IMG/VR virus record: IMGVR_UViG_3300029953_000122
Span: 1-29,537 of that record
DNA: 29,537 bases
Direction: 5' to 3' (one strand)
From: a virus
Position numbers and translations under genes: made by a program. This document shows, piece by piece, positions 1 through 27,392 of the stretch. The notes under the pieces were generated by a model, which was not told the DNA's origin, ran no database searches, and was given only the letters and a program-made list of their open reading frames with translations. Position 1 is the first letter of the stretch. Each line of letters starts with the position of its first letter.

Positions 1-128
1 GAGATATGGATAAAGTGATATATGCCAAAGAAAATAATATAAAATTATTAATTATCCCATATACAGAAGAAAAGAATTTAGAAAGCTATATTACTAAACA
101 AATTGATATATTAAATATAGGAATATAA
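1..128 (+). CDS. C-terminal end of a zinc-ribbon homing endonuclease (partial)
   Basis: The window opens inside a reading frame (first full codon at 3) that ends with TAA at 126-128. The visible 41 residues include DMDKVIYAKENNIKLLIIPY followed by TEEKNLESYI. This is nearly the same as the last residues of the complete endonuclease at 26325-27392 (DLDKVQYAKENNIRLIIIPY, then TEEKNLEEYI), so the two are paralogues. That family carries Cys/His zinc ribbons followed by a PD-(D/E)XK-like (EDxHD/Vsr-type) nuclease domain, and the visible part is the end of the nuclease domain. The stop codon directly abuts the ATG of the DNA polymerase gene at 129, so the element sits immediately upstream of the polymerase. 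The rest of the gene lies outside the window, so whether it is intact is unknown. Confidence 0.8.
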   Translation, partial: DMDKVIYAKENNIKLLIIPYTEEKNLESYITKQIDILNIGI

Positions 129-1970
129 ATGACAGCAACTATAAACATAGCTATATTATGTAATGGTAATCCAGAAATAAAAGAAACAAAGCAAATACAA
201 TTACTAAATCAATTTATTCCTAGGCCCCCAAGTTGTGATATAAATGTAATTACTATTTGTACCCCTGAGTTTACTACAGATATAGCTGAACAAATAATAG
301 AATTTGATACTGATTTGATTATTCATTACGGTTTAGAGCTTGGATTATTTTTTAATGAGTTGGAGACTACTTCTTTAATAAACAATAAAAAAATAGATAT
401 TATTGTAGATAATCACAGTGTAAATTCTCTATTTTACACTGATAAATATATGTATAGCACCTTTTTTGATGTTATTAAAGCAAAAATAGAAGATATAGAC
501 TTAGTAAAAAGTAGGCCTAGTAAATTATTTGTAGCAAAAACTGAGGCTGATTTAATCTATTTAAGAGATAGGTGTTTTAAGGAACCGTTTGGAGCTGATA
601 CAGAAACAAGCTTCCTAAATGCCTTTATAAAATCTCCAGCTCCTAAATTACTATGTTATTCTCTAGCATGGCTATCTGATGAAGAAGAGGCATGGTGTAT
701 CCCTACTTCTGATGCTCTTATAGCATCTGGAAATTGTACATTTACTAAGGAAACTGTATTAAAATATACAGAACAGATATTCTTTGAATCTGAACAGGCC
801 CAGTTCTGGCATAATTTTGCTTATGATGGTCTTGTATTACATGAGTTATTTAATGGTAGAAAACCTAAAAATTTCATGGCTGATACTATGGTGCTTCTTA
901 CTTTATATCACCATGCTAATAAATCAGCAGCCCTAAAAGAAAATACACATTTAATTGGATTACCTGCCTATAAAGACCCAATTAAAGATTGGATTAAGGA
1001 ACAGGCTACAATTTTTTCAAAAAAGAAAAAAGAAACTAAGGGTAAAGCAGCAAAAGAGGCTCTTGGAGATAGAACCTATGGTTTTGAAGACGTTCCGCTA
1101 GACATCCTGGCTCCATATGCCTCCATGGATGCGTTAGCAGTTGTAAGGCTTGTAAATTTTCTTAAAAAGAATATGGATAGAACTTTATGGAGTTTCTACT
1201 ATAAGATTCCACATAAAGTTATTATAACGTCTAATGAATTGGCTTGTGAGGGATATACTATCTCTAGAGATAGATTTTTACAAGCTAAATTAGAGTATGA
1301 AAAACAAATTAAAGCTACTTATGCTGATAGTATAACACTTATTGATTCATACATAGATGATAAGGATACTTTTAACATAGCTTCCGGTAAACAATTAGGT
1401 AATATATTATTTAATAAAGATAAGTTAAATCTTCCAGTATTTAATAAAACAAAGAAAAAATCTCCATCAACTAATCAAAAAGCTCTTGATGATTTGATTC
1501 TGTTTCATCCATTTATTTTTAAGCTGTCCAAACTTAAAAAGCTACTTAAATTATACTCTACTTATTCTTATAGAGGGTATAGTGGTGTGTTGAATGAGGG
1601 TTCAAGAAGCTACAAACGTATAGGACATTGGACAATCAATGCCCAATATAGTCAAACTAATAGAACAGCAAGATTAGGCTCTACAAATTTTTCTGGGCAT
1701 AATGGAGAAAAACATAAGGGAGGACCTATACTAACTCTTCCATCACACGGTTCTATGGTTAAACAATATTTTTGTCCAAATAATGTAGCAGAGCAGGAAA
1801 ATATACTTTATGACAAAATTGTGGCAAAATTGTCAGATGCTGATAAATTAAAAATTAGCCAGGCTTTAACTTTTGATATCTCATTAACTATTAAACCATC
1901 TAAAAGTAAGAAAAAAACTAAAGAAGTTGGTGTGAATGAAGACAGTGATGAAGATGATTCAGACAGTTAA
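129..1970 (+). CDS. Family A DNA polymerase, N-terminal half (3'-5' exonuclease and start of polymerase domain)
   Basis: The 613-aa protein carries the proofreading exonuclease and the first part of a PolA-type polymerase for phage DNA replication. Exo I is D157-T-E159, Exo II is N229xxxD233 (HNFAYDG) and Exo III is Y330xxxD334. Residues 415-480 match the PolA thumb pattern (FNIASGKQLG, then SKLKKLLKLYSTYS). TNRTARLGSTN at 510-520 corresponds to the TGRLSSxxPNLQ region, and VKQYFCP at 544-550 corresponds to RQAFxxP. In PolA, motif A should follow within a few residues. Here the protein instead continues into about 60 unrelated residues ending in a Lys-rich then Asp/Ser-rich tail (603-613). 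Motifs A, B and C are in the gene at 3621-4925. The first ~130 residues are unassigned and no 5' nuclease domain is visible. AGGA at 119-122 precedes the ATG. Confidence 0.93.
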   Translation: MTATINIAILCNGNPEIKETKQIQLLNQFIPRPPSCDINVITICTPEFTTDIAEQIIEFDTDLIIHYGLELGLFFNELETTSLINNKKIDIIVDNHSVNSLFYTDKYMYSTFFDVIKAKIEDIDLVKSRPSKLFVAKTEADLIYLRDRCFKEPFGADTETSFLNAFIKSPAPKLLCYSLAWLSDEEEAWCIPTSDALIASGNCTFTKETVLKYTEQIFFESEQAQFWHNFAYDGLVLHELFNGRKPKNFMADTMVLLTLYHHANKSAALKENTHLIGLPAYKDPIKDWIKEQATIFSKKKKETKGKAAKEALGDRTYGFEDVPLDILAPYASMDALAVVRLVNFLKKNMDRTLWSFYYKIPHKVIITSNELACEGYTISRDRFLQAKLEYEKQIKATYADSITLIDSYIDDKDTFNIASGKQLGNILFNKDKLNLPVFNKTKKKSPSTNQKALDDLILFHPFIFKLSKLKKLLKLYSTYSYRGYSGVLNEGSRSYKRIGHWTINAQYSQTNRTARLGSTNFSGHNGEKHKGGPILTLPSHGSMVKQYFCPNNVAEQENILYDKIVAKLSDADKLKISQALTFDISLTIKPSKSKKKTKEVGVNEDSDEDDSDS

Positions 1971-2589
1971 TAAACAAAGTAATAAGTATTCAAATATACA
2001 GTATAATTTTATAGCTAATTCTTTTATTCCTGAAAGTGGATATTTAAATCATTTATTATTAAAATATAGTGCCTCTATTACAGCATCTTTATTGATAAAA
2101 GAAAAATTATTAAATGATTATAGATATGCTTCTGTTATGTTAGTATATAAGCAAGTAAAAAGTAAAGCCTCAAGAAAAAAAGCACCTGAGAATATGCTGT
2201 TTAGAGAAAATCTTAATAATGATATATTAGATTACTTAAAAGTGGCAGAAACTACACCCTTTACAGAGACTAAAATACTATTATTAAATGATACAGTATT
2301 AGATAAATCAGTAGGGGATAGTGGCTTACAGTGTTTATTTGTTTTTGAAAAGCATGATGGTTCTCATGAATTTGTATTAAGCCCTGGTGCTGGTATTAGG
2401 GCACTAACTAATATGATTGGTATGGGAATTTTTGAATGTGAAAACGTAGATGAAGTATTAGACAGTCTTATTATGGAGTTATCTGATTTATGTCTTACTC
2501 ACATAATACCTCCTTCTGGTATTACTTTAACTTCCAAATTAACAGAAGACATTAAAAGATATTTAGAATTTTATTTATATGGAAAATAA
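1936..2589 (+). CDS. Unknown 217-aa protein lying between the polymerase halves
   Basis: I do not recognise this protein. It starts 35 bases inside the end of the polymerase N-half gene, in another frame, so the two are probably translationally coupled. ATGs at 1936, 1948 and 1954 are all possible starts and none has a strong ribosome binding site. It looks soluble and mixed alpha/beta, with no signal peptide, membrane segment or obvious metal-binding cluster. A central stretch (LSPGAGIRALTNMIGMGIFE) is followed by a helical acidic C-terminal third. It is not a frame-shifted remnant of polymerase, because no PolA motif is present. Its position suggests it arrived with, or was trapped by, the event that split the polymerase. 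A role as a bridging or accessory subunit for the two halves is only a guess. Confidence 0.7.
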   Translation: MKTVMKMIQTVNKQSNKYSNIQYNFIANSFIPESGYLNHLLLKYSASITASLLIKEKLLNDYRYASVMLVYKQVKSKASRKKAPENMLFRENLNNDILDYLKVAETTPFTETKILLLNDTVLDKSVGDSGLQCLFVFEKHDGSHEFVLSPGAGIRALTNMIGMGIFECENVDEVLDSLIMELSDLCLTHIIPPSGITLTSKLTEDIKRYLEFYLYGK

Positions 2590-2627
2590 AGCATTAATAA
2601 CAAACTAACTTCAAAGGAGATAATACA

Positions 2628-2816
2628 ATGAAATATCAAATTGGTGCCATTATTAAGGACCCAGACAATTATACTACATGGGAAGTAATTAAAGCCGAAA
2701 TGAGACCAGACAAGGAACTTTACACAGTAAAACACATAATTAATGGTGTAATATCTAGTATGGGAGTTGAGTTTGATGGAACTGATAGGTGGATAGAATA
2801 TTATATTAAGATGTAA
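2628..2816 (+). CDS. Small 62-aa protein of unknown function
   Basis: This short gene has an excellent ribosome binding site (AAGGAGA at 2614-2620, seven bases before the ATG), which supports it being real. The product is small and probably beta-rich, with alternating hydrophobic residues (YQIGAIIKDP, YTVKHIINGVISSMGVEF), several Trp/Tyr and no cysteines. It does not resemble a known domain that I can name. It lies between the 217-aa gene and the LAGLIDADG endonuclease, inside the interval separating the two polymerase halves. Confidence 0.65.
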   Translation: MKYQIGAIIKDPDNYTTWEVIKAEMRPDKELYTVKHIINGVISSMGVEFDGTDRWIEYYIKM

Positions 2817-2826
2817 GAGAAAAGTA

Positions 2827-3639
2827 ATGGCAAAAGAACCTAATTGGTCAAAAGAAGACAATTTATTATTAAAAGAACATTATGAATTAGATACAGAAGA
2901 GAATCTTCAAAGGTTATTTCCTACAAGAACCTGGGTAGGAATTAAAGAACATGCGAAAAGCAAATTTAAAATAAAAAGATTAGTATCCAATAGAGTAAGA
3001 GTTGGAAATACTGCTACTTTATTGGAAGAAACATTGGAGGCTTATTATTGGATGGGCTTCTTATTAGCTGATGGCACATTTGATAAGAATGGAAGGCTAT
3101 CTTTAACTTTATCCGAAAAAGATAAAGACCAAGCATATAAATTTGCCTCCTTTATAGAAATGAAAAAAGAAAATGTAAGAGCATATACAAGAAAAACTAA
3201 TTATAGCAGTTCTTCTACCCATTATCAAGTATCAAGTATGGTAGGATATTATGGTCAACAAATAAGAGAGAAATTTGATTTAAAGTTGAATAAAACGGAA
3301 AATCCTCCAGACCTAAGTAAGATACTTAACAATACAACCAAAGATAATTTTTTAGCTTTAATAATTGGCTTTATTGATGGAGATGGGTCAATAATTTATT
3401 CCAATAAAAAAGTAAATACAAATATAAAAATAGAAATACACTCCTCATGGTTACTGAATTTATCCCTAATAGAAAAAGTTATTTATTCCTATTTTTTAGA
3501 AGTTGGACCTAACTCTTCAAAAATAAATAGAAATGGATATGCTTCACTGTATATATCAAGAACTTCCATAGTTAAAAAATTAAAAGAATTCAGTAAAAAT
3601 CTACCGAGGTTAGAAAGAAAATGGCAGAAGATAACCTAA
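2827..3639 (+). CDS. LAGLIDADG homing endonuclease with N-terminal Myb/SANT-like region
   Basis: This 270-aa protein is a site-specific homing endonuclease. It has two LAGLIDADG motifs about 104 residues apart: GFLLADG (77-83, acidic residue D82) and GFIDGDG (181-187, acidic residue D186). A monomeric two-motif enzyme places one acidic residue from each motif in the active site. The first ~50 residues (NWSKEDNLLLKEHY, then FPTRTWVGIKEHA) resemble a Myb/SANT-type helix-turn-helix, common as an extra DNA-binding module in phage homing endonucleases. The gene lies between the two halves of the family A polymerase and its last 19 bases overlap the start of the C-half. Both motifs are intact, so the enzyme could be active. 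The likely target is a polymerase gene lacking the insert. Confidence 0.9.
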   Translation: MAKEPNWSKEDNLLLKEHYELDTEENLQRLFPTRTWVGIKEHAKSKFKIKRLVSNRVRVGNTATLLEETLEAYYWMGFLLADGTFDKNGRLSLTLSEKDKDQAYKFASFIEMKKENVRAYTRKTNYSSSSTHYQVSSMVGYYGQQIREKFDLKLNKTENPPDLSKILNNTTKDNFLALIIGFIDGDGSIIYSNKKVNTNIKIEIHSSWLLNLSLIEKVIYSYFLEVGPNSSKINRNGYASLYISRTSIVKKLKEFSKNLPRLERKWQKIT

Positions 3640-4925
3640 TTCAAAAGTTAAATAAATTATCATTTAATAGTTTAGATAAGTTAGGAATTGATTGGAGAAG
3701 TGTAGTTAGCTCTAATCCAGATTTACAAGCTGATTATACTTCTTTATTAACTCTTAAAAAAGACTGGATTATAATTAACATCGACTATAGTCAACTTGAG
3801 GCATATATGCTAGCCTCGTTATCTGGTGATGATAAGCTTATTAAGGCTGTTAATTCTGGACTTGACCTACATAAAGTTAACACTGAAAACTTATATCACC
3901 TTAATTATTCTGAAATAGAAACAAATCTTAATAATGCCAAAACACCAGAAGAAACTAGAGTAGCACAAGCTATTATGGAAGATTTTAAAGCTAAACGAAA
4001 AGCAACAAAATCCTTTACGTTTAGTATTAGTTATGGAGCTGGTAAAGAAAAAATAAGTATGGATTTAAGAATTCCAGCGCAAGATGCTGATAAACTTCTT
4101 AAAAATTTCTATGCCACATATCCAAAAATTAGAGCTTGGCAAGGAAGAACTTTGTTAAAAGCAGTAAAGGAAGGATATTTAGAAACACCTTTTGGAAGAA
4201 GAAGAGCCACTCCAAAAATTTATGGAAGACATGAAGCATACAAGGCATTTATTGAAGAAGACTATAAAACTATACAAAAGTTAAAAACTGATAAAGAATA
4301 TTGGTCATTAAGAGAAGAATTTAAGCAAATTTTGAATACTAACATTCAAAGTAGTGCTACTGACATGTGTAGTTTGGCTGCTTGTAAATTTAAAAACTGG
4401 TTAAAGACTTCTGATAAACGGGCTGAGTTATACTTCTGGGTACACGATAGTATTGTATTGGCTTGCCATGTTGATGATTCTGTGGAAGTAATAGAAAAAT
4501 TACGAGATTTTATGGAAAATCAAGTAAAATATCCTAATGACCCAGTTAATTATAGAACATCATTAGAGGTTGGTTATAATTATGAGTGGGTAACTGAAAT
4601 TAAACGTGATGATTGGATTAAGACATCAGATAAGAAAGCTTTATTACTTGCTAAATTAGACGAAAGTTTAGATGAGGATTTAAATAAATCTTTCAAAATG
4701 ATAATTAAAAGTACTCAAAGCGATATGACAAACTTTGAAGCCTATATTAAAACAGTTAAAATGTCTAAGGAAGATTATTTTAATAGCCTTGTTGAGAAGT
4801 TAGGTATTGAAGGTATAACAAGTCCAGAAGAGTATATGATTGCGCTTAATAACTGTTCCCCTGAGGAATATGAACAAAGTATGGGATTTGATATAGAAGG
4901 AGAAACAGGAGATGAAGAAGTCTAA
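3621..4925 (+). CDS. Family A DNA polymerase, C-terminal half (palm/fingers catalytic core)
   Basis: This 434-aa protein holds all three catalytic polymerase motifs. Motif A is DYSQLE at 55-60 (metal ligand D55). Motif B is R126xxxK130xxxF134xxxY138G, matching E. coli Pol I R754/K758/F762/Y766. Motif C is VHDS at 274-277 (metal ligand D276), where Ser replaces the usual Glu of HDE. NIQSSATD at 241-248 matches the PolA QxxAxD helix. Residues 1-47 are not PolA-like, and DWIIINIDYSQLE (48-60) picks up exactly where the N-half leaves off. About 100 extra acidic residues follow the normal polymerase end. The ATG lies inside the endonuclease gene, with GAGG at 3606-3609, and no other ATG precedes motif A. 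The protein has no exonuclease, so it must work with the N-half or as a non-proofreading core. Confidence 0.93.
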   Translation: MAEDNLIQKLNKLSFNSLDKLGIDWRSVVSSNPDLQADYTSLLTLKKDWIIINIDYSQLEAYMLASLSGDDKLIKAVNSGLDLHKVNTENLYHLNYSEIETNLNNAKTPEETRVAQAIMEDFKAKRKATKSFTFSISYGAGKEKISMDLRIPAQDADKLLKNFYATYPKIRAWQGRTLLKAVKEGYLETPFGRRRATPKIYGRHEAYKAFIEEDYKTIQKLKTDKEYWSLREEFKQILNTNIQSSATDMCSLAACKFKNWLKTSDKRAELYFWVHDSIVLACHVDDSVEVIEKLRDFMENQVKYPNDPVNYRTSLEVGYNYEWVTEIKRDDWIKTSDKKALLLAKLDESLDEDLNKSFKMIIKSTQSDMTNFEAYIKTVKMSKEDYFNSLVEKLGIEGITSPEEYMIALNNCSPEEYEQSMGFDIEGETGDEEV

Positions 4926-5211
4926 TCCTAAACAATATAAGATATTACATATAGTATCTGGTAATTATTGTATATTAGCACCTCTTGATAGAACTGTTAA
5001 TTACTTTGTATTAGATTTTGAAGGTACTCATAGACCCTGGATTGACATACAAAAATCAACAGACAAAAAACTTTGGGAATGGTTTTGGAATAATCCTGGA
5101 AGTTTGGAATTAGCCTCTTACCTATGTGGTGAATATGAATATGAGACTCGTAGTTCACATTTTATAACTGAACACATGACCAAAGATGAATTTGAATTGG
5201 TAGCTATATAA
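4912..5211 (+). CDS. Unknown 99-aa protein, paralogue of the gene at 6270
   Basis: The function is not recognised. The gene starts 14 bases before the polymerase C-half ends, with AAGGAG at 4897-4902, so the two are coupled. The N-terminus (YKILHIVSGNYC) closely matches RILHILSGTLC of the 88-aa protein at 6270-6536. Both also share a mid-protein Trp-rich stretch (PWIDI with KLWEWFW, against PFINI with EQLWNK) and an ending of the type DEFELVAI/NEFTLI. They therefore form a small paralogous phage family. It is probably a compact mixed alpha/beta soluble protein, with no membrane segment. Confidence 0.75.
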   Translation: MKKSNPKQYKILHIVSGNYCILAPLDRTVNYFVLDFEGTHRPWIDIQKSTDKKLWEWFWNNPGSLELASYLCGEYEYETRSSHFITEHMTKDEFELVAI

Positions 5212-5636
5212 TGTTTGAGGAATATGAGTCTGTTATTAAGCAATCAATAACTAATGAAAAAGCAGATAAGTTTTTGTCAAAGAATTACTACAAGATTTTT
5301 CATTTATTAAGTAGTGAGATTCTTTATAAAGAGCTACTTGTGCCCCATAATATCTTTAAATTAGATAGCAAGCAATGTTATGAAGGAAGAATTCTTGGAA
5401 AACCTATGGGATGGTATTTATCCTGGAAACAGTATTCCTGTCCTTTAGTTCTTCCTTTACATTGCTGTAAGGGGTTTGTTCATACTAATATAGCTAATGG
5501 GTCGTTAGGTAAAAGGTATCCAGAATGTACCTTTAATGAATTTGATTATATTCCAGTAAGTAAAGAAGAAGCTATAATAGCCTATGGATTAAATATTCCA
5601 CTTAGCTACTATAAAAAAATATTAAAAAATGAATAA
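5211..5636 (+). CDS. Unknown 141-aa protein
   Basis: The ATG shares one base with the previous stop (TAATG), a classical translational coupling arrangement with no strong ribosome binding site of its own. I do not recognise a family. The protein is rich in aromatic residues and has a Cys cluster (CPLVLPLHCCKGF, around residues 82-94) that could bind a metal. Near the N-terminus YKIFHLLSSE faintly echoes the KILHIVSG start of the preceding protein, but the similarity is too weak to call homology. It probably belongs to the same operon as the neighbouring small genes. Confidence 0.7.
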   Translation: MFEEYESVIKQSITNEKADKFLSKNYYKIFHLLSSEILYKELLVPHNIFKLDSKQCYEGRILGKPMGWYLSWKQYSCPLVLPLHCCKGFVHTNIANGSLGKRYPECTFNEFDYIPVSKEEAIIAYGLNIPLSYYKKILKNE

Positions 5637-5659
5637 TGTTTATATAGGAGAAAAACTAA

Positions 5660-6268
5660 ATGAAAATTAATTTAAGTAAGGGAAATACTAAACTTGGTAA
5701 AATTTTATCTTTTAGTATTTCAGCATTAAAATCCTGTCCTACAAAAACTTCATGGTGCGAAAAACACTGTTATGCTAAAAGACTTGAAAATCAATATCCA
5801 AATGTTAAACAAGCATACAATGATAACTTTAATGCTATTACAGATAAAACCTTTACAACAGATATGGTAACTGAAATTAAGAAATATAATAAATCTAATA
5901 TATTTAGATTACATGTTAGTGGAGATATGCTTAATGTGGCATATATTTATAAATGGATAAGTATTGCTAAACAATTACCTAATATTACATTCTATGGTTA
6001 TACAAGAGCTTGGGAAGATACTAACTTACTTCCACATCTAGGTATTTTAAATAAGCAACCAAATGTAGTATTATTTGCTAGTACTGATATAACTACAACT
6101 AAGAATACACCAAAAACATTTAGAGTTGCCTATGCTGGAGATAATAAACCAACTAATATACAATCAACAACATGTCCTCAACAAACTAATAAAGTTGATA
6201 CATGTCTTGACTGTAAATTATGTTTTACTAAAAAAGCTAAAACTAATATTTATTTTAGGACACACTAA
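5660..6268 (+). CDS. Gp88-family phage protein (cysteine-rich, CYA and HVSGD motifs)
   Basis: The 202-aa protein matches the layout I know from the phage Gp88 family. It has an N-terminal GNTKLGK segment (8-14), then C26, C33 and C37 (SCPTKTSWCEKHCYA), a central FRLHVSGD (82-89) followed by FYGYTRAW (111-118), and a C-terminal cysteine group C172, C182, C185, C188 (CLDCKLC). The conserved Cys and the His85/Asp89 pair suggest bound metal or an Fe-S cluster, but the biochemical role of the family is not established to my knowledge. AGGAG (5647-5651) supports the ATG at 5660. The next small gene begins one base after the stop. The family assignment is from memory of the motif pattern. Confidence 0.75.
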   Translation: MKINLSKGNTKLGKILSFSISALKSCPTKTSWCEKHCYAKRLENQYPNVKQAYNDNFNAITDKTFTTDMVTEIKKYNKSNIFRLHVSGDMLNVAYIYKWISIAKQLPNITFYGYTRAWEDTNLLPHLGILNKQPNVVLFASTDITTTKNTPKTFRVAYAGDNKPTNIQSTTCPQQTNKVDTCLDCKLCFTKKAKTNIYFRTH

Positions 6269-6269
6269 T

Positions 6270-6536
6270 ATGAGAATTTTACATATCCTATCTGGAACTT
6301 TGTGTTCTTATGTAATATATTCTAATAATGCTGTAATATCTATTTCAGGCTTTAATCCTCCTTTTATAAATATTACAGAAAAAGAATATGAGCAACTTTG
6401 GAATAAAAATTATGTTATAATATTTGGATTAGATGACCAACGACCTAGTGATATAAAAATATATGGTAAATATCCAGATAAATATATAATAAATAAAGGA
6501 ATTGAAATATTACCAAATGAATTTACTTTAATATAA
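6270..6536 (+). CDS. Unknown 88-aa protein, paralogue of the gene at 4912
   Basis: I place the start at ATG 6270, one base after the Gp88-family stop. A longer open frame runs back to 6126 but lies within the Gp88 gene, and only the shorter form aligns with its paralogue. The opening RILHILSGTLC matches KILHIVSGNYC of the 99-aa protein at 4912-5211, and both end with a (D/N)EF-containing hydrophobic tail. AGGA at 6257-6260 may serve as ribosome binding site. The function is unknown. The pair flanks the 141-aa and Gp88-family genes, suggesting a local duplication. Confidence 0.7.
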   Translation: MRILHILSGTLCSYVIYSNNAVISISGFNPPFINITEKEYEQLWNKNYVIIFGLDDQRPSDIKIYGKYPDKYIINKGIEILPNEFTLI

Positions 6537-6543
6537 GGAATCT

Positions 6544-7329
6544 ATGGAGTATAGTGAACAAGATAAAAAATTACGATTGGAATATCTTACTAACAAATTA
6601 AAACTCTCTAATAGGGAGCAGGGGGAGAAACAAGAGCTAATTAGATTATTAACTCCTAAGAATACCAAACTGAATAATAAAAAAGACTATAAAAATATAG
6701 AACAATATTTTGATGTAGTAGAAAGTAGTGTAAATAAAATATATAATGAAGCTAGACGTTCTGGTTCTAAGGCCATACAACCAGAATTAAGAGATGAATT
6801 AAAACAAATAGGTATGGTAAGTCTATTAGAAACATATAATAACTTTGACACATCAAAAGATTGTTCGTTTAGAACATATGCTTGGTATAGAGTTAGAGGA
6901 GCCTTATTGGATTATTTACGAAGTCAAGATACTGTATCAAGAAGCACTAGAGCTGCCTTAAAACTAATAAAACATGATGATACTACTAATACCTTTAGCT
7001 CTGATGTATTAACTCAGAAACAAGTTGATATAGCAGTAAAAAAAAGTACAATAGTTAGTCAATTTTCAATGTTAAATGAAGATTCCTCTGTGGCAACTAT
7101 AGCAGATTTTGAAGATACTACAGATAGATATCTAAATATAGAGGATAAAGAAACATTAAAAAGTCTATTAAAGGCATGTCCATTAACTGAAAGAGAAAAA
7201 GCTATAATTGATGGACACTATTTCAAAGACAAAAGATTATATGATATAGGAAGAGAATTAGGGATTACAGAGAGCAGAATAAGTCAATTACATAAAGAAA
7301 CATTAAATAAGCTGGCCAAATATGTCTAA
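6544..7329 (+). CDS. Phage-encoded sigma factor of the FliA/SigD (sigma-28) type
   Basis: The 261-aa protein is a sigma-70-family factor that should redirect host RNA polymerase to phage promoters. Residues 84-136 are region 2, with DELKQIGMVSLLETYNNFD and SFRTYAWYRVRGALLDYLRS followed by SRSTR. These match the FliA/WhiG/SigD pattern (DLIQxGxxGLLEAxxRYD, FxTYAxxRIRGAMLDELR, VPRSxR). Residues 213-258 are region 4 (PLTEREKAIIDGHY, DIGRELGITESRISQLHKE), with the typical SESRVCQLH-like recognition helix. The middle (140-200, region 3) is poorly conserved, and the first ~50 residues are a charged extension. AAGGA at 6535-6539 is only four bases from the ATG. Two sigma-28-like promoters on the opposite strand (14249-14274, 27412-27438) are candidate targets, pointing to control of late genes. 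Confidence 0.9.
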   Translation: MEYSEQDKKLRLEYLTNKLKLSNREQGEKQELIRLLTPKNTKLNNKKDYKNIEQYFDVVESSVNKIYNEARRSGSKAIQPELRDELKQIGMVSLLETYNNFDTSKDCSFRTYAWYRVRGALLDYLRSQDTVSRSTRAALKLIKHDDTTNTFSSDVLTQKQVDIAVKKSTIVSQFSMLNEDSSVATIADFEDTTDRYLNIEDKETLKSLLKACPLTEREKAIIDGHYFKDKRLYDIGRELGITESRISQLHKETLNKLAKYV

Positions 7330-7579
7330 AATGGATGAAATAAATAAAAGAATATTAGAAAATACAAATGAGCACTTACTTCTACATCCTGATATTAAAG
7401 CTATTCTAAAATCAATTGAAGGTTTAGAGACTTTAAAAACTCAATTACAAGAAACAAGAGATAATTCAGCTAATATAATAGATTTAGAAGCTTCAATTGA
7501 TATAATAGAGATGCTAGTAGACATAGAAACTTCAATAAAAGAATTAGAACAGCAAATATTTATAGAGAATAAGAAATAA
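7322..7579 (+). CDS. Small coiled-coil protein coupled to the sigma factor gene
   Basis: This 85-aa protein starts eight bases before the sigma-factor stop (ATG 7322; a second in-frame ATG lies at 7331), so it is co-translated with it. It is almost entirely helical, with heptad-like hydrophobic spacing (IKAILKSIEGLETLKTQL, then IDIIEMLVDIETSIKELEQQ), indicating a coiled coil. It has no cysteines and no membrane segment. Its family is not recognised. Close coupling to a sigma gene is typical of sigma regulators such as anti-sigma factors, but no FlgM-like motif is visible, so that role is only a possibility. Confidence 0.7.
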   Translation: MSKMDEINKRILENTNEHLLLHPDIKAILKSIEGLETLKTQLQETRDNSANIIDLEASIDIIEMLVDIETSIKELEQQIFIENKK

Positions 7580-7580
7580 A

Positions 7581-8441
7581 ATGGATAAAAAAGAAAGCAT
7601 ATCTCTAGATAAATATTATACAAAATCTGAAACTGCTATGTTATGTTATACTAAATTAAAAAATTACATTACTTCACAAAATATTAAACTTAATAATATT
7701 ATTTTTATAGAGCCTTCTGCTGGAAATGGCAAATTTTTAGAGGTCATACAAGAAACTAAAATAGGATTAGATTTATTTCCAGAGCATTCTGACATAGTTA
7801 AAGCAAATTTTTTATCTGGAGACATATTAAAGTTTTATAAACAAAGAAAGTGTAATTATATTTTTATAGGTAATCCTCCTTTCGGATATAAGGGTAGACT
7901 AGCTATTGATTTTATAAATATGTCACTTAAATGTAGCGAAATTGTTGGATTTATATTGCCTATTCAATTTAGAAAGTGGTCAGCACAATCAAAAATTAAT
8001 AAGCAAGCAAAATTAGTATTTGATATGCTACTTCCTATTAATTCCTTTACTTTATCCAATAAAGAGTATAATTTACGATGTTGTTTTCAAATATGGACTT
8101 TAAATAATGACACAACAAATCTTCGACTTTTAGAAAAACCAAGGACGTGGCATTCTGATTTTAAGTTGTATCAATACAATAGAACACCAGAAGCAGAAAA
8201 ATATTTTGATATGATTTGGGATTTTGCTGTTCCACGACAAGGCTATTTAGATTATACTTTTAAAGCGTTTTCAAAAGAACAATGTGATAGAAAACAACAA
8301 TGGATATTCTTTAAAGCAAATAATGATATAGTTTTAGAAAAATTAAAAGCATTAGATTTTGTTAAGTTATCATTAAAAAATAGTGGCATACCAGGATTTG
8401 GTAAGGCTGATGTTATAGAGGAGTATACTAAATTATGTTAA
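7581..8441 (+). CDS. DNA adenine (N6) methyltransferase-like protein
   Basis: This 286-aa protein is a class I SAM-dependent methyltransferase of the type that methylates adenine in DNA. Motif I is FIEPSAGNGKFL (42-53), which binds SAM. Motif IV is NPPF at 98-101, the catalytic loop typical of N6-adenine and N4-cytosine enzymes. GLDLFPEH at 62-69 is a plausible motif II, with an acidic residue for the SAM ribose. No separate target-recognition domain is evident beyond the C-terminal ~150 residues, so specificity cannot be read. The start is one base after the preceding stop, and the last seven bases overlap the next gene, a putative restriction nuclease. Together they resemble a Type II restriction-modification pair. 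A stand-alone anti-restriction methylase is the alternative. Confidence 0.85.
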   Translation: MDKKESISLDKYYTKSETAMLCYTKLKNYITSQNIKLNNIIFIEPSAGNGKFLEVIQETKIGLDLFPEHSDIVKANFLSGDILKFYKQRKCNYIFIGNPPFGYKGRLAIDFINMSLKCSEIVGFILPIQFRKWSAQSKINKQAKLVFDMLLPINSFTLSNKEYNLRCCFQIWTLNNDTTNLRLLEKPRTWHSDFKLYQYNRTPEAEKYFDMIWDFAVPRQGYLDYTFKAFSKEQCDRKQQWIFFKANNDIVLEKLKALDFVKLSLKNSGIPGFGKADVIEEYTKLC

Positions 8442-9169
8442 AAACCATTGAGGAATTAATCACTATATTAAAAGAAACTAATTTTAGTAGTTCATTAGCA
8501 ATAGAAACAACTAATACAACAACTAAAAATAATGATAATATTACAGAACTTGCTATAAAACAGATACTATTAGATAATGGCTTACACGAACAGCAGAAAA
8601 CAAATCCAACCATAGATGATTTACAACAAGAATATACTAGACAAACAGGAAAAATATATTATAAACTATCCTCGAAGGAAGGCAAAGCACTGACTGAAAT
8701 GGAAAAGGCTGAACAGATTAAAAAATTGACTCAAATCAAAACTACATATAAAACACCACTAAAAAATGGATATTTTATGTATCAGCCAAACGGAAGTCAA
8801 ATGCCTCCTGATTTTGCTGTTAATATAAATGGCTTTCTAGACATAGAAAGCAAAGCGGGTCATTTAACAATGTTTAATAGTGGATTACCTAAAGAAAATA
8901 CTTTTTATATGTGTGAATTCCTTGATGGTACATCTCATAGAGATTTTGGAAAGAATATATTTGCTGAACCTGCTATGTGCAATTTATTAAAGGAAATCAG
9001 AGAAGAATTTGAAGAACATAATGACAATGCTCTAAATAGATTAGAAAATAGTGGAAAATTTTCTAATGAAAAATTAGAAATAATTAAAAAATATAATTTA
9101 TGTCTATATCCAAGAGCAATGATGAGACCATTTTCAGCTAAAGATAGTATTTGGAATATAACAATCTAA
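8435..9169 (+). CDS. Putative PD-(D/E)XK restriction endonuclease partnered with the methyltransferase
   Basis: This 244-aa protein starts seven bases inside the end of the methyltransferase gene. It contains QPNGSQMPPDF (117-127) followed by LDIESKAG (135-142). D126, E138 and K140 fit a PD-(D/E)XK nuclease core, with ExK on the second strand. The FNSGLPKENTFYMC stretch after it also resembles the region after the core in several uncharacterised Type II restriction enzymes that I recall. The first ~100 residues are mainly helical, and a C-terminal YPRAMMRPF may be part of DNA contact. With the adjacent methyltransferase this suggests a compact restriction-modification system carried by the phage. 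A host-DNA-degrading nuclease protected by the methylase is another reading. The last gene of the + strand block, it precedes the terminator at 9194-9222. Confidence 0.7.
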   Translation: MLKTIEELITILKETNFSSSLAIETTNTTTKNNDNITELAIKQILLDNGLHEQQKTNPTIDDLQQEYTRQTGKIYYKLSSKEGKALTEMEKAEQIKKLTQIKTTYKTPLKNGYFMYQPNGSQMPPDFAVNINGFLDIESKAGHLTMFNSGLPKENTFYMCEFLDGTSHRDFGKNIFAEPAMCNLLKEIREEFEEHNDNALNRLENSGKFSNEKLEIIKKYNLCLYPRAMMRPFSAKDSIWNITI

Positions 9170-19565: not shown

Positions 19566-21365
19566 TTAAACTATTTCAGTCCAAATATAATTAGCTGTAT
19601 TTGGTGTAAAGCTGGTAATATTTGTTATAGAATACGTAGCACTTGAGGGCACTATAAAATAACCTGTAGAATAAGAGCCTGCTGCTGCTAAACTTGTTGG
19701 AGTATTAGCAATTAAAACACTATTAACATATAACCCAAAGCTTACAGATGTGGTAGTAGTTCCAGAATCACTTATAATAACTAACATTGGTTTTCCAGTG
19801 CTGTTAGTATAAGTTGTGCCTAATACTCTAGTAGTGGAATTATATGTAGTAACTGTTGAAAAAGCTCCAGTAACCCCAGTAAAAGGAACTGACGCAGCAC
19901 TACCACCAATAGATAATCCAGCTGCAGTTCCAGTTAAACCTGTTCCTGGACCGCTAAAAGACCCACCAGTAATAGACCCAGTAGATAATATAGAAGTAGT
20001 AGCTACTATAGTTCCAGTTACTACTCCGGTAGATGCTCCAGTTATATTAGCCCAAGTAAGATTAGTTAGATTGCTTCCATCACCGGAAAATGAAGATGCT
20101 GATACAGCACCTGAAAATAATCCTGTTCCAGTAGATATTGATGTAGAAAAACTTCCTATTGTTCCTGACACTGTTCCCGTAGAAGTTAAAGCATTACACC
20201 AAATTGTTTTCCCTACTCCAAGACCCCCGGAAACATATAAAGCAGTTCCTACAGAGCTATAAGCTGTAGAAGTAGTGTTAGAGATATTAACTTGACCAGC
20301 AATAGTCATACTTTGTGAAAATACTGAAGCGCCACCAACAGTAAGGGCTCCTCCTATAGATAAATTATTAGATAATGTAGCACTATTTCCAGTAAAAATA
20401 CCAGAAACAAGTAGAGTGCTGGAGAAGCTTCCTGTAGTAGTTACAATACCATTAGTAAAAACTCCACCACCAGTAGTAAGTGCTTGTAAATCAGCTAAAG
20501 TAATATTAGACTCCAACACTGAATTATGGTCAGATGAGGAATATAATACATAATTTCCAGCATAACTTGAGGGTCTAGTTAAAATAGTTCCTGTAGCATC
20601 TGGATAGGAATAAACCCTATTAGCACTTAATCCAGAACTATTTAACGACATAGTATATGAGGAATCACCTATGAGATTAATAGCTTTTTTATTATTTGTT
20701 ATTAATGTCCAAGTATCTGATGTAGTTGTAGTAGTGCTTAATAAGATACTAGCTATAGTTAGATTAGAGGTTCCATTAATAATTAAACCTCCACCAACCG
20801 TTCCTCCAGTTGTTCCACTATTATTTAATAATACGGTATTACTAGAGATAGATAAATTAGAACCTATAGATAGAGAACCTACTATGCTTACGTTATTAGA
20901 AAAAGAAACTGCCCCCCTAACGGAAAGGCCATTAGCTAGTGTAAAAGAGTTGCTAAAAACTACTGGGCAATTAAAAGTAGTTAAATTAGTAGAGGAAGTA
21001 TTATTAAAAATAATAGGGCCATTTATGGTATTGTAAGAAGTTGTAGTAGGATTGGTTATAGTTACTAATCCTGTAAAAGTAGTAGCTCCTTCAAAGGTAT
21101 TTACATTTGTAAAAATATTAGAATAACCTAATGTAGGAAATGAAGCTATAGTACTGCCGTTATTAGAAAATTGAAGTTGCCAAGAACCTCCCACATAAGC
21201 TACTCCTATATATGGATTATATAAATAGCCAGCTGTGGTACTGGTCTGAAATACAATATATTTAGGTTCCAATAGGCCAACACTGTCTGTTGGGTCTCCT
21301 ATAACTAAATCCCTATTATTAGTAGTTGTATATCTAAATTGACTTGGAACTAGTTCGCCGCTCAT
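19566..21365 (-). CDS. Tail fibre, paralogue of the gene at 22180 (599 aa)
   Basis: The N-terminal ~85 residues (SGELVPSQFRYTTTNNRDLV, IGDPT, KYIVFQT) are nearly identical to those of the neighbouring fibre at 22180-23766. The C-terminal ~100 residues (YNSTTRVLGTTYTNSTGKPM) are also related to its end. The N-terminus therefore probably attaches to the same baseplate partner. The shaft consists of Gly/Ser/Thr-rich repeats ('FSGDGSNLTNL', 'SFSGPGTGLTGT') typical of trimeric phage fibres, and the C-terminal domain would be the receptor tip. AAGGA precedes ATG 21365. No intramolecular chaperone is visible at the end. The two fibres are separated by an HNH homing endonuclease. Confidence 0.85.
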   Translation of the reverse strand: MSGELVPSQFRYTTTNNRDLVIGDPTDSVGLLEPKYIVFQTSTTAGYLYNPYIGVAYVGGSWQLQFSNNGSTIASFPTLGYSNIFTNVNTFEGATTFTGLVTITNPTTTSYNTINGPIIFNNTSSTNLTTFNCPVVFSNSFTLANGLSVRGAVSFSNNVSIVGSLSIGSNLSISSNTVLLNNSGTTGGTVGGGLIINGTSNLTIASILLSTTTTTSDTWTLITNNKKAINLIGDSSYTMSLNSSGLSANRVYSYPDATGTILTRPSSYAGNYVLYSSSDHNSVLESNITLADLQALTTGGGVFTNGIVTTTGSFSSTLLVSGIFTGNSATLSNNLSIGGALTVGGASVFSQSMTIAGQVNISNTTSTAYSSVGTALYVSGGLGVGKTIWCNALTSTGTVSGTIGSFSTSISTGTGLFSGAVSASSFSGDGSNLTNLTWANITGASTGVVTGTIVATTSILSTGSITGGSFSGPGTGLTGTAAGLSIGGSAASVPFTGVTGAFSTVTTYNSTTRVLGTTYTNSTGKPMLVIISDSGTTTTSVSFGLYVNSVLIANTPTSLAAAGSYSTGYFIVPSSATYSITNITSFTPNTANYIWTEIV

Positions 21366-21377
21366 TTCTAATTTTCC

Positions 21378-22148
21378 TTATGCTCTATCATTTATACTGT
21401 GTATCAGTCTCTTACTTATTTCATAATTTATTGTTTTATAATTACTATTATGAGCTTTGGTAAAATGACAATCAAAACATAATAAAATTAAATTATCAAT
21501 ATCTAATGCCCTTGATTCATCTAAATTAATTGGTATTATATGATGACAATATAATTTATTCTTAATTGAGGAATGTTTTCCACATAATTGACAAGTATAA
21601 TTATCTCTTTTTCTAACCTTACTTAATATACCACTTTGTAATATTTTAGAACGTAATAATTTTGAATTGTCTGTCAATAAAATATCTGGATTTTTTCCTT
21701 TACTTATTCTATAATTTTTAAAAAAAGTTCTAGTATGCTCTTTTGCTAAACATCCACAGGACTTGGTATTTCCTGAAATCAATTCGCTAGTGCTTACATA
21801 ATGTATTTCCAAAGAACCGCAAGAACATTTTACAGGCCATTTAAATCTTCCATTTATTTTTTGTTTTTCTCCAATAACTTCTAATCTATCAAAAATATCC
21901 CCAATACTTATTAAATATTTAATCCTAGATTTTTTCTCTTTTAGTAATATTTTTTTTCTCTTACAGCCACAACTTTTTGCTTGGTTACCATCTTTACGAA
22001 TAAGGTCAAATTTAGTAACTAGTATTTCCTTGTAACAAATACAAGAACATATATATTTTGTAATATTTCTAACCCCATTAAAAACAACAACTTTAGAAAT
22101 TACAGTTAGATAATTTATCTGTGTTCCCTCTAATAGTTCTTCTGACAT
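21378..22148 (-). CDS. HNH homing endonuclease between the two fibre paralogues
   Basis: This 256-aa protein carries an HNH nuclease domain: CQLC (C186, C189), YCHHIIPI with H202/H203, N219 in IDNLILLC, then C224, C227 and H228 (LCFDCH). Upstream lie two cysteine modules ending in SCGC (59-62 and 130-133), each preceded by paired Cys (CSCIC at 34-38, CSCG at 108-111). This arrangement is frequent in phage HNH homing enzymes and probably contacts DNA. The core catalytic residues are present. AAAGG precedes ATG 22148. It sits exactly between two paralogous fibre genes in the same orientation, as a free-standing homing gene would. Confidence 0.88.
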   Translation of the reverse strand: MSEELLEGTQINYLTVISKVVVFNGVRNITKYICSCICYKEILVTKFDLIRKDGNQAKSCGCKRKKILLKEKKSRIKYLISIGDIFDRLEVIGEKQKINGRFKWPVKCSCGSLEIHYVSTSELISGNTKSCGCLAKEHTRTFFKNYRISKGKNPDILLTDNSKLLRSKILQSGILSKVRKRDNYTCQLCGKHSSIKNKLYCHHIIPINLDESRALDIDNLILLCFDCHFTKAHNSNYKTINYEISKRLIHSINDRA

Positions 22149-22179: not shown

Positions 22180-23766
22180 CTAATTATGGGTCTCACTCCA
22201 ATATACATTTGCTATTGAAATACTATAAACTAAATTTACTTGATATGTCCAACCTTGTGGTACTATAAAAGAGCAAATAGCAGTATCATCAAAAGCGTCT
22301 ATTCCAGTGCTTTTACAACTTACCGCAGATAAAGTTCCATTTAGATAAACGTAAAAATAAGCAGAGTATGGTTGGCTGCCTTGTGGCTGAACTGTAACAG
22401 TTACAAACATTGGGCCTGATGTGCTGTTAGTAAATGAAGTTGAAAAGGGTCTGCTAGAACTATTATACACACTTACAGTAGTAAATGGCTTACCAGATAC
22501 ACCAGAATAAGGAACTGTACCAGCAGAACCAGCGGAAGAAGCATAGCCAACACTTAAACTGGAGGCAGTTCCTGTTAAACCAGTTCCGGCACCAGAAAAT
22601 GAAGAAGCCACAACAGTTCCCCCAGCAGACATGCCACCAGATAAAGTTAAAGAAGCAGCGGTAAGAGCACTTGAAAAAGTTCCGGCAGTTGCTCCTGTTA
22701 TAGCACCAGATAAAGCTAAAGAAGTTGCTGATAGGGCTCCAGAAAAAGTTCCAGTAGTTCCTACTACAGCTCCTCCAGCATTAGCTAAAATTAAATTTAT
22801 TTGTGACTGTATATTAGAAGTTAATCCAGATAGATAGCTGACATTTATAGTAGATTCTGTGATTGAAGTATTATCTGAAGAAGATAACAAAAGCTTACTA
22901 CCAGAGAAAGTTCCTGGATTTATTACTAAAATTCCAGAATTATTAGGATATTGATAGGTCCTAGCAGCAGTTAATCCAGGGCTCTTAAAAGTTATAGGAT
23001 AGGAAGAATCACTAATAAAATTTATAGGATATCCAGAAGCAGGAAGCAAAGTCCACGTATCTGAAGTAGTAGTTGTAGTGGAAGTCAAAATACTAGCAAT
23101 AATAGCAGAACTTCCATATACTACTAATCCAGAACCAGAAGATGCTGATGTACTACCTGTATAATGTACTGCTACTGTAGAAGAATTAGATATTACGGAA
23201 GAAATGGGCCCTAGGGAAATTGCTCCAGTTGCTGTTAGTCCATCTGACAAAGTAACTAATCCATTAAAAGTACCAGCACCAGATAGAAGTAAAGTTGAGG
23301 ATAAAGTAACTGCTCCAGATACCCCTAAGGAACCTGATATAGTTACAGGACTATTAAATACAGTAGGTGAACTATTGTTAATTATTACAGAACCATTAAA
23401 TGTAGCCGCTCCAGATACTGCTATGGAAGAACTAAAAGTAACAGCACTATTAAGGGCTACACTACCATTAAAAGTTACAGTGCTGTTAAAGGTATTAGCA
23501 GCACTAAATATATTTGCTAGAGATAATTGAGCAAAAGAAGTAGATGAAACTCCATTACTAGAGAACTGTAATTCCCAAGTACTTGTTCCAGAATTATATG
23601 TAACTCCTATATATGGATTAGTAGCATATCCAGGAGCTGTATTTGTCTGAAACACTATATATTTAGGGTCTAGTAATTCAGCAGTATTTGTTGGGTCACC
23701 TATAACTAAATCTCTATTATTAGTTGTAGTGTACCGAAATTGTGATAAAGTTAACTCGCCACTCAT
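22180..23766 (-). CDS. Tail fibre, paralogue of the gene at 19566 (528 aa)
   Basis: This 528-aa protein shares its N-terminal attachment region (SGELTLSQFRYTTTNNRDLV, IGDPT, KYIVFQT) with the 599-aa fibre at 19566-21365, and its end (YNSSSRPFSTSFTNSTSGPM) is related but diverged. The shaft has many 'TFNGSVTI'-like and 'GTFSGALSATSLALSG' repeats. The C-terminal ~100 residues differ most, as expected for a receptor-binding tip. It ends in TAG. AAGGAAG precedes the ATG. It is transcribed before the HNH endonuclease and the second fibre. Confidence 0.85.
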   Translation of the reverse strand: MSGELTLSQFRYTTTNNRDLVIGDPTNTAELLDPKYIVFQTNTAPGYATNPYIGVTYNSGTSTWELQFSSNGVSSTSFAQLSLANIFSAANTFNSTVTFNGSVALNSAVTFSSSIAVSGAATFNGSVIINNSSPTVFNSPVTISGSLGVSGAVTLSSTLLLSGAGTFNGLVTLSDGLTATGAISLGPISSVISNSSTVAVHYTGSTSASSGSGLVVYGSSAIIASILTSTTTTTSDTWTLLPASGYPINFISDSSYPITFKSPGLTAARTYQYPNNSGILVINPGTFSGSKLLLSSSDNTSITESTINVSYLSGLTSNIQSQINLILANAGGAVVGTTGTFSGALSATSLALSGAITGATAGTFSSALTAASLTLSGGMSAGGTVVASSFSGAGTGLTGTASSLSVGYASSAGSAGTVPYSGVSGKPFTTVSVYNSSSRPFSTSFTNSTSGPMFVTVTVQPQGSQPYSAYFYVYLNGTLSAVSCKSTGIDAFDDTAICSFIVPQGWTYQVNLVYSISIANVYWSETHN

Positions 23767-26324: not shown

Positions 26325-27392
26325 TTAGGAAATTATATATTTGCTTATATACTCCTCAAGATTCTTTTCTTCAGTATATGGAATAATTATAAGTCTTATA
26401 TTATTTTCTTTAGCATACTGAACTTTATCTAAATCTCGTTGAATTGCTTTCTCATATATGGCCAAAGTTTTATGCCAGTAATTTGGATATTCATAATGCT
26501 GATAACCATGATATTCAAAGGCTATTTTATGTTCTTCATTATAACCATCCCATTGATAGCAATTACTTTCACATTTAAAATTAGTTTTTTTAAGTTCAAA
26601 TCCAAGTTTTTGTTCTAATAATTCTTTACATTTACGCTCTGTCTTAAACGAAGAACATTCCGGGCACCACTTGTTACCAATATGTAAATTTCCCCAACTA
26701 GCTCTCCATTGATGACCTTTTGAACATTCCCACAACATTCTAGTTTCATTATTGACATAAACTTTTTCAAGGCATTTACCATTATATTTTTTTGTAACAT
26801 ACTCATTACATTCTTCTACAGAAGGCTTACTTTTATTAGCACATACAGGACACCATGTTTTTTTATTTTTAATACCATTCCAGTTAGTCTTCCATTGATG
26901 CCCCTCAGAGCACTCCCAAAGCATTCTAACATGACTATTTACATAAATAGTATTACAACATCTTCCATTATGCTCATTTTTAACATACTCACAACATTCT
27001 TCTATAGTTGGCTTAACATTTCTTGCGCAAATAGCACACCATTTATTGCCACTATTAATACTGTTCCAAGTGGCTTTCCATTTATGACCTTTAGAGCATT
27101 CCCACAACATTTTATAGTGGGCATTTACATAAGTAGTTTCAAGACATTTACCACTATGTTCTTTTTTGGCATAATCTTGACATACACTAATATCAGGCTT
27201 AAGATTTCTTGCGCATTTAGGACACCAACTATTAGCATCTTTTATATTATGCCAGGGAGTTCTCCATTGATGCCCTAAAGAACATTCCCAAAGCATTTTA
27301 ACATGAGTACCTTTGTAAATATTCTCCAAACATTTGCCACCCTTATTAGCTGCCCAAAGCCTACATTCAATTATATCACTTTTCTTGCCCAT
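26325..27392 (-). CDS. Zinc-ribbon homing endonuclease with PD-(D/E)XK-like (EDxHD/Vsr-type) domain
   Basis: The 355-aa protein has four tandem zinc-ribbon units of 62 residues. Each has WEC..GH.W and later WCP.C or close variants (C37/H41/C57/C60, C99/H103/C119/C122, C161/H165/C181/C184, C223/H227/C243/C246). The C-terminal domain (~250-355) contains WDGY (D282), IAFEYHGYQHY (E293, H299), RDLDK (D320, D322) and RLIIIPY. This pattern is typical of the EDxHD/Vsr-like homing nucleases found in phages. GAGGA precedes the ATG at 27392. A sigma-28-like promoter lies just upstream. A second family member ends at position 128. It separates a neck-like gene from a tail gene. Confidence 0.88.
   Translation of the reverse strand: MGKKSDIIECRLWAANKGGKCLENIYKGTHVKMLWECSLGHQWRTPWHNIKDANSWCPKCARNLKPDISVCQDYAKKEHSGKCLETTYVNAHYKMLWECSKGHKWKATWNSINSGNKWCAICARNVKPTIEECCEYVKNEHNGRCCNTIYVNSHVRMLWECSEGHQWKTNWNGIKNKKTWCPVCANKSKPSVEECNEYVTKKYNGKCLEKVYVNNETRMLWECSKGHQWRASWGNLHIGNKWCPECSSFKTERKCKELLEQKLGFELKKTNFKCESNCYQWDGYNEEHKIAFEYHGYQHYEYPNYWHKTLAIYEKAIQRDLDKVQYAKENNIRLIIIPYTEEKNLEEYISKYIIS

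Follow-up and report, generated by a model that had tools for sequence, protein, structure and literature searches.

The window analysed here is a stretch of 29,537 nucleotides from a virus (IMG/VR virus record IMGVR_UViG_3300029953_000122, positions 1 to 29,537 of that record), in which a family A DNA polymerase (PolA) is encoded by two open reading frames (ORFs). The first ORF, which we call the N-half, carries the exonuclease motifs and the second, the C-half, carries polymerase motifs A, B and C. A preliminary description of this DNA, made from its letters alone, had proposed that a PolA is divided in this way directly before motif A. The polymerase features are as follows:

129..1970, plus strand: PolA N-half gene, 613 amino acids, with the N-terminal domain, 3'-5' exonuclease, thumb and first palm strands
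597..608, plus strand: Exo I motif DTET, N-half residues 157-160
810..827, plus strand: Exo II motif HNFAYD (pattern HN..YD), N-half residues 228-233
1116..1130, plus strand: Exo III motif YASMD (pattern Y...D), N-half residues 330-334
1782..1967, plus strand: C-terminal tail of the N-half, residues 552-613 (62 residues), two weakly predicted helices with a Lys-rich then Asp/Ser-rich end
3621..4925, plus strand: PolA C-half gene, 434 amino acids, with palm and fingers, motifs A, B and C and a C-terminal extension of ~100 residues
3621..3758, plus strand: N-terminal extension of the C-half, residues 1-46, predicted helical
3783..3800, plus strand: motif A DYSQLE, C-half residues 55-60
3996..4034, plus strand: motif B R126...K130...Y138, RKATKSFTFSISYG, C-half residues 126-139
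4443..4448, plus strand: motif C His-Asp, C-half residues 275-276
4611..4922, plus strand: C-terminal extension of the C-half, residues 331-434, with an acidic end; 54% identical to the relative L011 described below, with a ratio of nonsynonymous to synonymous change (dN/dS) of 0.27

Family matches and the placement of the motifs in the two ORFs confirm this division, and all three exonuclease motifs are in the N-half as had been described. The ORFs match consecutive stretches of the PHROG DNA polymerase family phrog_17, the scored match of the N-half ending at its own residue 550 and that of the C-half picking up at profile column 1003. Pfam DNA_pol_A is likewise shared out between them, with the C-half matching PF00476 (E-value = 1.6e-43). 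The C-half also matches phrog_2573 (E-value = 9e-41), although phrog_17 is the better match, and phrog_9556 is not among the matches of the N-half. Exonuclease and polymerase motif residues are mostly invariant or nearly so across 30-34 diverse viral PolAs, and this holds for D55, E60, R126, K130, Y138, H275 and D276 of the C-half among 34 PolA sequences. The usual single PolA chain with thumb, palm and fingers is thus replaced by two ORFs, both here and in a diverged relative.

In alignments with unsplit SPO1-like, Enterococcus, T5-like and bacterial PolAs, the break falls within the loop that joins VKQYFCPNN to KDWIIINIDYSQLE; an intact bacterial-type PolA in a phage record (L027) served solely as an unsplit reference. 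The last common Phe is followed by the motif A Asp after 11-13 residues in the aligned unsplit enzymes, and the window loop, read as F-CPNN plus KKDWIIINI-D, implies a loss of 0-2 residues, which bears out the earlier estimate of 0-4. The unrelated extensions at the new ends, put at about 60 and 47 residues in the preliminary description, were found as 62 residues (552-613) and 46-47 residues. According to AlphaFold models, each half is predicted to fold by itself into the part of Pol I expected of it. The C-half is modelled as palm and fingers with a mean predicted local distance difference test (pLDDT) score of 84 and most of the core above 90, and its Foldseek matches are KlenTaq, Bst and Pol theta (E-value about 3e-15). 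The N-half model (pLDDT 75) comprises the exonuclease, the thumb and a portion of the palm, and its Foldseek matches are phage G20c Pol I and Klenow (E-value about 4e-15).

Our search of IMG/VR for relatives revealed, besides three contigs that are almost identical to the window, a single diverged relative on two contigs (L011/L006/L010), in which the N-half is 72% and the C-half 61% identical to the window. In this relative (L011/L006) the polymerase is broken at the identical residue, and each half keeps its tail: the N-half tail reads ..ENILYDKIVAKLS..KPAK..DDEDDDSV and the C-half extension M..KLDSLSFNSLDKLGIDWRSV..LKK. Synonymous change between the window and L011 is near saturation (pS 0.67-0.91), at a protein identity of 61-64% in the tails and the C-half core. 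The N-half tail is 61-63% identical at a pS of about 0.9, and the C-half N-terminal extension is 62% identical with a dN/dS of 0.17, next to 0.19 for the catalytic core and 0.06-0.19 for the polymerase cores overall. The Lys-rich then Asp/Ser-rich tail noticed earlier on the N-half is both seen in the window and conserved in L011. Because the tails are conserved while synonymous change is near saturation, they are neither sequencing errors nor chance read-through. On these alignments they are under purifying selection, a constraint similar to that on the enzyme, and they are therefore probably functional; a role as docking sequences is plausible. The C-half extension is modelled as short helices of moderate confidence, including a block at residues 21-50 with a pLDDT of 70-82. 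The acidic tails of phage T7 bind replisome partners. By analogy, a further possibility is that both chains use their acidic ends to contact such partners as well.

Candidate sources of the tails were also considered and rejected. Profile searches of the tails against all collected ORFs matched significantly only the two lineages themselves, which speaks against copying from homing genes, and none of 45 unsplit viral PolA loci showed a long insert in the break loop from which the tails could derive. A likeness (FNSL..KLGI) between the start and the end of the C-half itself was not significant (1.1 bits).

The halves are flanked and separated by the following genes:

1..128, plus strand: 3' end of a phrog_559-type homing endonuclease gene (frame 3, ending ...DKVIYAKENNIKLLIIPYTEEKNLESYITKQIDILNIGI, stop 126-128), directly upstream of the N-half
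1936..2589, plus strand: 217-amino-acid ORF overlapping the N-half end, without a Pfam or PHROG match; its L011 homologue has 214 amino acids and is 49% identical
2628..2816, plus strand: 62-amino-acid ORF without a Pfam or PHROG match
2827..3639, plus strand: free-standing LAGLIDADG homing endonuclease (PF14528, E-value = 1.8e-6; phrog_4645, E-value = 2.3e-17)

The preliminary description likened the split to polymerase genes interrupted by homing genes. A homing gene does lie between the halves, namely the LAGLIDADG ORF at 2827-3639, whose 3' end overlaps the start of the C-half by 19 bases, but it is not a necessary part of the arrangement since the relative lacks it. We found no match to the LAGLIDADG gene at the loci of L011, and both homing genes are absent around the halves in L010/L011, so homing genes are not needed to keep the split. 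A complete homologue of the upstream homing gene (L009:5110-6000) matches phrog_559 (E-value = 2.5e-44) and DUF4379 / CapR domains. From base ~482 to 7967 the window and L009 are 99.99% identical, whereas over bases 1 to ~481 the identity is only 74-88%. This divergent stretch takes in the end of the upstream homing gene as well as ~118 codons at the start of the N-half. It is a recombination tract, and the exchange next to a homing gene resembles co-conversion. Two further homing-type genes (HNH and phrog_559) lie on the minus strand among tail/fibre-like genes at 21378-22148 and 26325-27392, giving four homing-type genes in 30 kb of the window.

The arrangement of the halves has also changed between the two lineages. 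The gap between them measures 1.65 kb in the window and 3.8 kb in the relative, where it contains several genes; two of these, a sigma factor gene and a methyltransferase-like gene, are located in the window on the downstream side of the C-half. This corresponds to a block rearrangement between window 3621-9169 and L011:9210-13617, in which the C-half gene, together with two small genes, precedes the genes for the sigma factor and the methyltransferase-like protein in the window but follows them in the relative. Because the same break and tails occur in a diverged relative with changed gap content, the break is most likely old in the lineage and not fresh. The homologue of the 217-amino-acid ORF also follows the N-half in L011 while the other neighbours differ, and this gene (1936-2589) is a candidate polymerase partner. 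A scan of bases 1-5400 for sigma-70 promoters and terminators gave results no richer than shuffled sequences.

We consider it probable that the two ORFs encode two chains of one family A polymerase that assemble without being joined. The most likely history is that of an old two-chain polymerase assembled in trans, neither a spliced gene nor a fresh break. The assembly of the chains, the role of the tails and the activity are what we infer from this comparison. Translation of each chain would begin at a start of its own. In the assembled enzyme, the final palm strand of the N-half (around MVKQYFC) would lie paired with the C-half strand that carries motif A (DWIIINIDYSQLE), as it does within one-chain PolA, and the two new terminal tails would add a clamp between the chains. 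The N-half would supply the exonuclease and thumb, and the C-half the catalytic metal ligands and fingers. The split would most likely have begun as the insertion of a homing element in the conserved motif A region, after which the halves would have moved relative to each other while the homing gene came and went. Introns and homing genes are abundant in phage polymerases (PMC11878797), which fits such an origin, and by analogy a homing insertion may also have given rise to the split in the window lineage. Going further, the tails of this lineage might form an obligate docking module of a dedicated two-subunit replicase, its polymerase and proofreading chains coming together solely by way of the tails and being open to exchange or separate regulation, a proposal that we advance only tentatively.

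Several points weigh against two assembling chains. The clade of the window consists of only two diverged members. In the AlphaFold model, the N-half tail forms two helices of low confidence, and the stretch after them has very low confidence. A full-length polymerase gene elsewhere would, according to the preliminary description, speak against a two-chain enzyme; no second PolA was found on five related contigs of 19-56 kb, a point in favour of two chains, but every contig is a fragment and another polymerase may lie elsewhere in the genome. IMG/VR scans tuned to the clade for unsplit close relatives gave back only the same contigs.

One alternative is a spliced gene. Here the gap of ~1.65 kb with its LAGLIDADG gene would be a self-splicing intron and one continuous polymerase would be made. 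Phage PolA genes commonly contain group I introns with homing genes, as do nearly half of Bastillevirinae polymerase genes (PMC11878797), the annotation of the ICP2 polymerase joins two pieces and shows an HNH gene in that region, and the two window halves happen to share one reading frame. However, no Rfam family of any kind, introns included, was found in the gap at gathering thresholds, and relaxing the E-value up to 10 gave only two weak unrelated Rfam matches in 1-5400. Rfam scans for group I and II introns across the window, its relatives and the other split loci were also negative. Splicing would further remove long coding tails that L011 conserves as protein, and the L011 gap is 3.8 kb long with several other genes and different content. 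We therefore regard splicing as very unlikely. The earlier claim that the halves are made separately is in turn supported by their own start codons, the lack of an intron signature and their conservation as separate genes in the relative. Joining at the protein level, with the tails acting as the halves of a split intein, has a reported precedent in the split family B polymerase gene of phage MIJ3 (PMC6892783), yet the tails of 62 and 46 residues match no intein family in Pfam or PHROGs. By inspection, the downstream junction (...LTLKKDW) lacks His-Asn and the Lys/Asp/Ser-rich end of the N-half tail does not look like intein blocks, which leaves an intein highly improbable.

The two remaining explanations accept two separate products but deny that they form one enzyme. 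If the gene were broken and decaying, a host or other polymerase would replicate the phage and the halves would be remnants; the incompleteness of the contigs leaves room for such a polymerase. Against this, the catalytic residues are all intact, the cores have a dN/dS of 0.06-0.19 with near-saturated synonymous change, and the break is common to a diverged relative, so decay too seems very improbable. The halves might instead act separately, the N-half as a stand-alone exonuclease and the C-half as a polymerase that its tails bring to the fork. Their distinct genes, their relocation relative to each other and their different tails are all compatible with this, but the C-half, which has no thumb and is short of several palm strands, is unlikely to hold a primer-template alone, and the halves usually lie near each other both in the window lineage and in the Zobellviridae-type lineage described below. 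Separate action is accordingly unlikely, though less so than splicing or decay.

A family A polymerase split at motif A had first appeared to be a singular design. This did not hold, as OM43 phages MEP401 and MEP402, Vibrio phage VP41s3, some 14 IMG/VR contigs and the half-specific PHROG families phrog_9556 and phrog_2573 precede the window. MEP401 and MEP402 carry a family A polymerase in two ORFs, for which an intron was guessed (PMC10580990, 2023), and this report was the one earlier description that our literature searches for split family A polymerases found. In MEP401 the first ORF finishes with EIKTLFLSRYGE and the second opens with MILNADAKALEW, which is the same loop as in the window; the MEP401 N-half has the same end position as the window N-half and its phrog_17 match ends at column 1003. 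VP41s3 (MZ073369) has two annotated polymerase coding sequences, and our IMG/VR pattern scans recovered the split PolAs of the 14 contigs (L045, L084, L155-L166). All of these break 0-20 residues before motif A, without long tails. The Zobellviridae-type N-half ends ..GRLSC.NPNLQN.T.. and the C-half starts MS.IRECFKSR..G.LVEADYSQLE, in agreement with the ends of phrog_9556 (N) and phrog_2573 (C); the gaps reach ~850 bases, and in L160 the open frames adjoin with nothing between. The scans looked for a start codon near motif A, which by design selects for splits, and some contigs appear in more than one row, so the 22 split versus 43 whole loci are not frequencies.

The window resembles the OM43 and Zobellviridae-type polymerases in that a family A palm is cut shortly before motif A into two intact ORFs, one with exonuclease and thumb and the other with motifs A to C and its own start codon. 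It differs in its long tails, in the position of the break, which lies ~20 residues further upstream in most Zobellviridae-type enzymes (MEP401 breaks at motif A itself), and in the LAGLIDADG gene between the halves, where the Zobellviridae-type loci have small ORFs or nothing. In a tree built from motif A to the end, the window and L011 stand on their own long branch and the Zobellviridae-type splits fall in a supported group that includes unsplit enzymes. A single clade of the window pair and the Zobellviridae-type splits was rejected (approximately unbiased test, p=0.0056). Judging by this tree, with its long branches and unsettled bootstraps, the window lineage likely split separately, giving two or more origins. 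PolA splits in this palm region are thus already known from other phages, recorded but not studied; new here are, apparently, an independent split exactly at motif A, two conserved tails and an altered relative position of the halves.

Similar histories are known for other phage enzymes. In Aeromonas phage 25 the halves gp43A/B co-purify and show polymerase activity (PMC2988022). Like the window, phages 25 and 44RR encode the replicative polymerase in two genes, and phage 25 has a free-standing homing gene at the break (PMC2988022), as does the window although not its relative; gp43 is a family B polymerase, so both enzyme and break differ from those of the window. The split NrdA (ribonucleotide reductase) of Aeromonas phage Aeh1 is fully functional (PMC2988022; PMC3267527). 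There too an essential enzyme has been divided by a free-standing homing gene, and its two chains cooperate, a cooperation that for the window is proposed. The enzyme is a different one, and the window tails have no similarity to the neighbouring homing genes. Homing endonuclease gene (HEG)-islands (Barth, Dunham, Seed 2023, PMC10448857) likewise place an essential replication gene between two homing genes with adjacent sequence exchange. This arrangement is found around the N-half, with the phrog_559-type gene upstream, the LAGLIDADG gene downstream and exchange at the edge. However, homing genes in HEG-islands flank whole genes, modules or spliced exons, whereas the second homing gene of the window sits between the halves of an enzyme.

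If the two chains do assemble, a well-studied polymerase fold would join the small set of enzymes that are functional after being cut, and the finding points to one palm region as the place of repeated PolA breakage. Were the docking-module proposal also true, the window and the Zobellviridae-type splits together would show that two-chain PolA has evolved independently more than once within the same short stretch of the palm. A polymerase that is split in nature and has docking tails could also be put to use as a reagent whose activity can be controlled. The finding frames the question of whether PolA cut at this loop is a working enzyme and what the tails contribute.

Other features of the window and its relatives were observed outside the polymerase locus. 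A tandem array of more than 10 consecutive small paralogues (60-140 amino acids) occurs in L009:800-3829 and L010:148-4384, with members in the window at 4912-5211, 5211-5636 and within 6126-6536. These paralogues start like.KILHIPTG.Y/F and finish like FEIVEV, the two window copies tested had no Pfam or PHROG match, and the array appears to be a lineage-specific expanded family. Finally, two paralogous fibre-like proteins with near-identical starts (MSGEL..SQFRYTTTNNRDLVIGDPT) are encoded on the minus strand at 19566-21365 and 22180-23766, and an HNH gene sits between them, suggesting a possible duplication.

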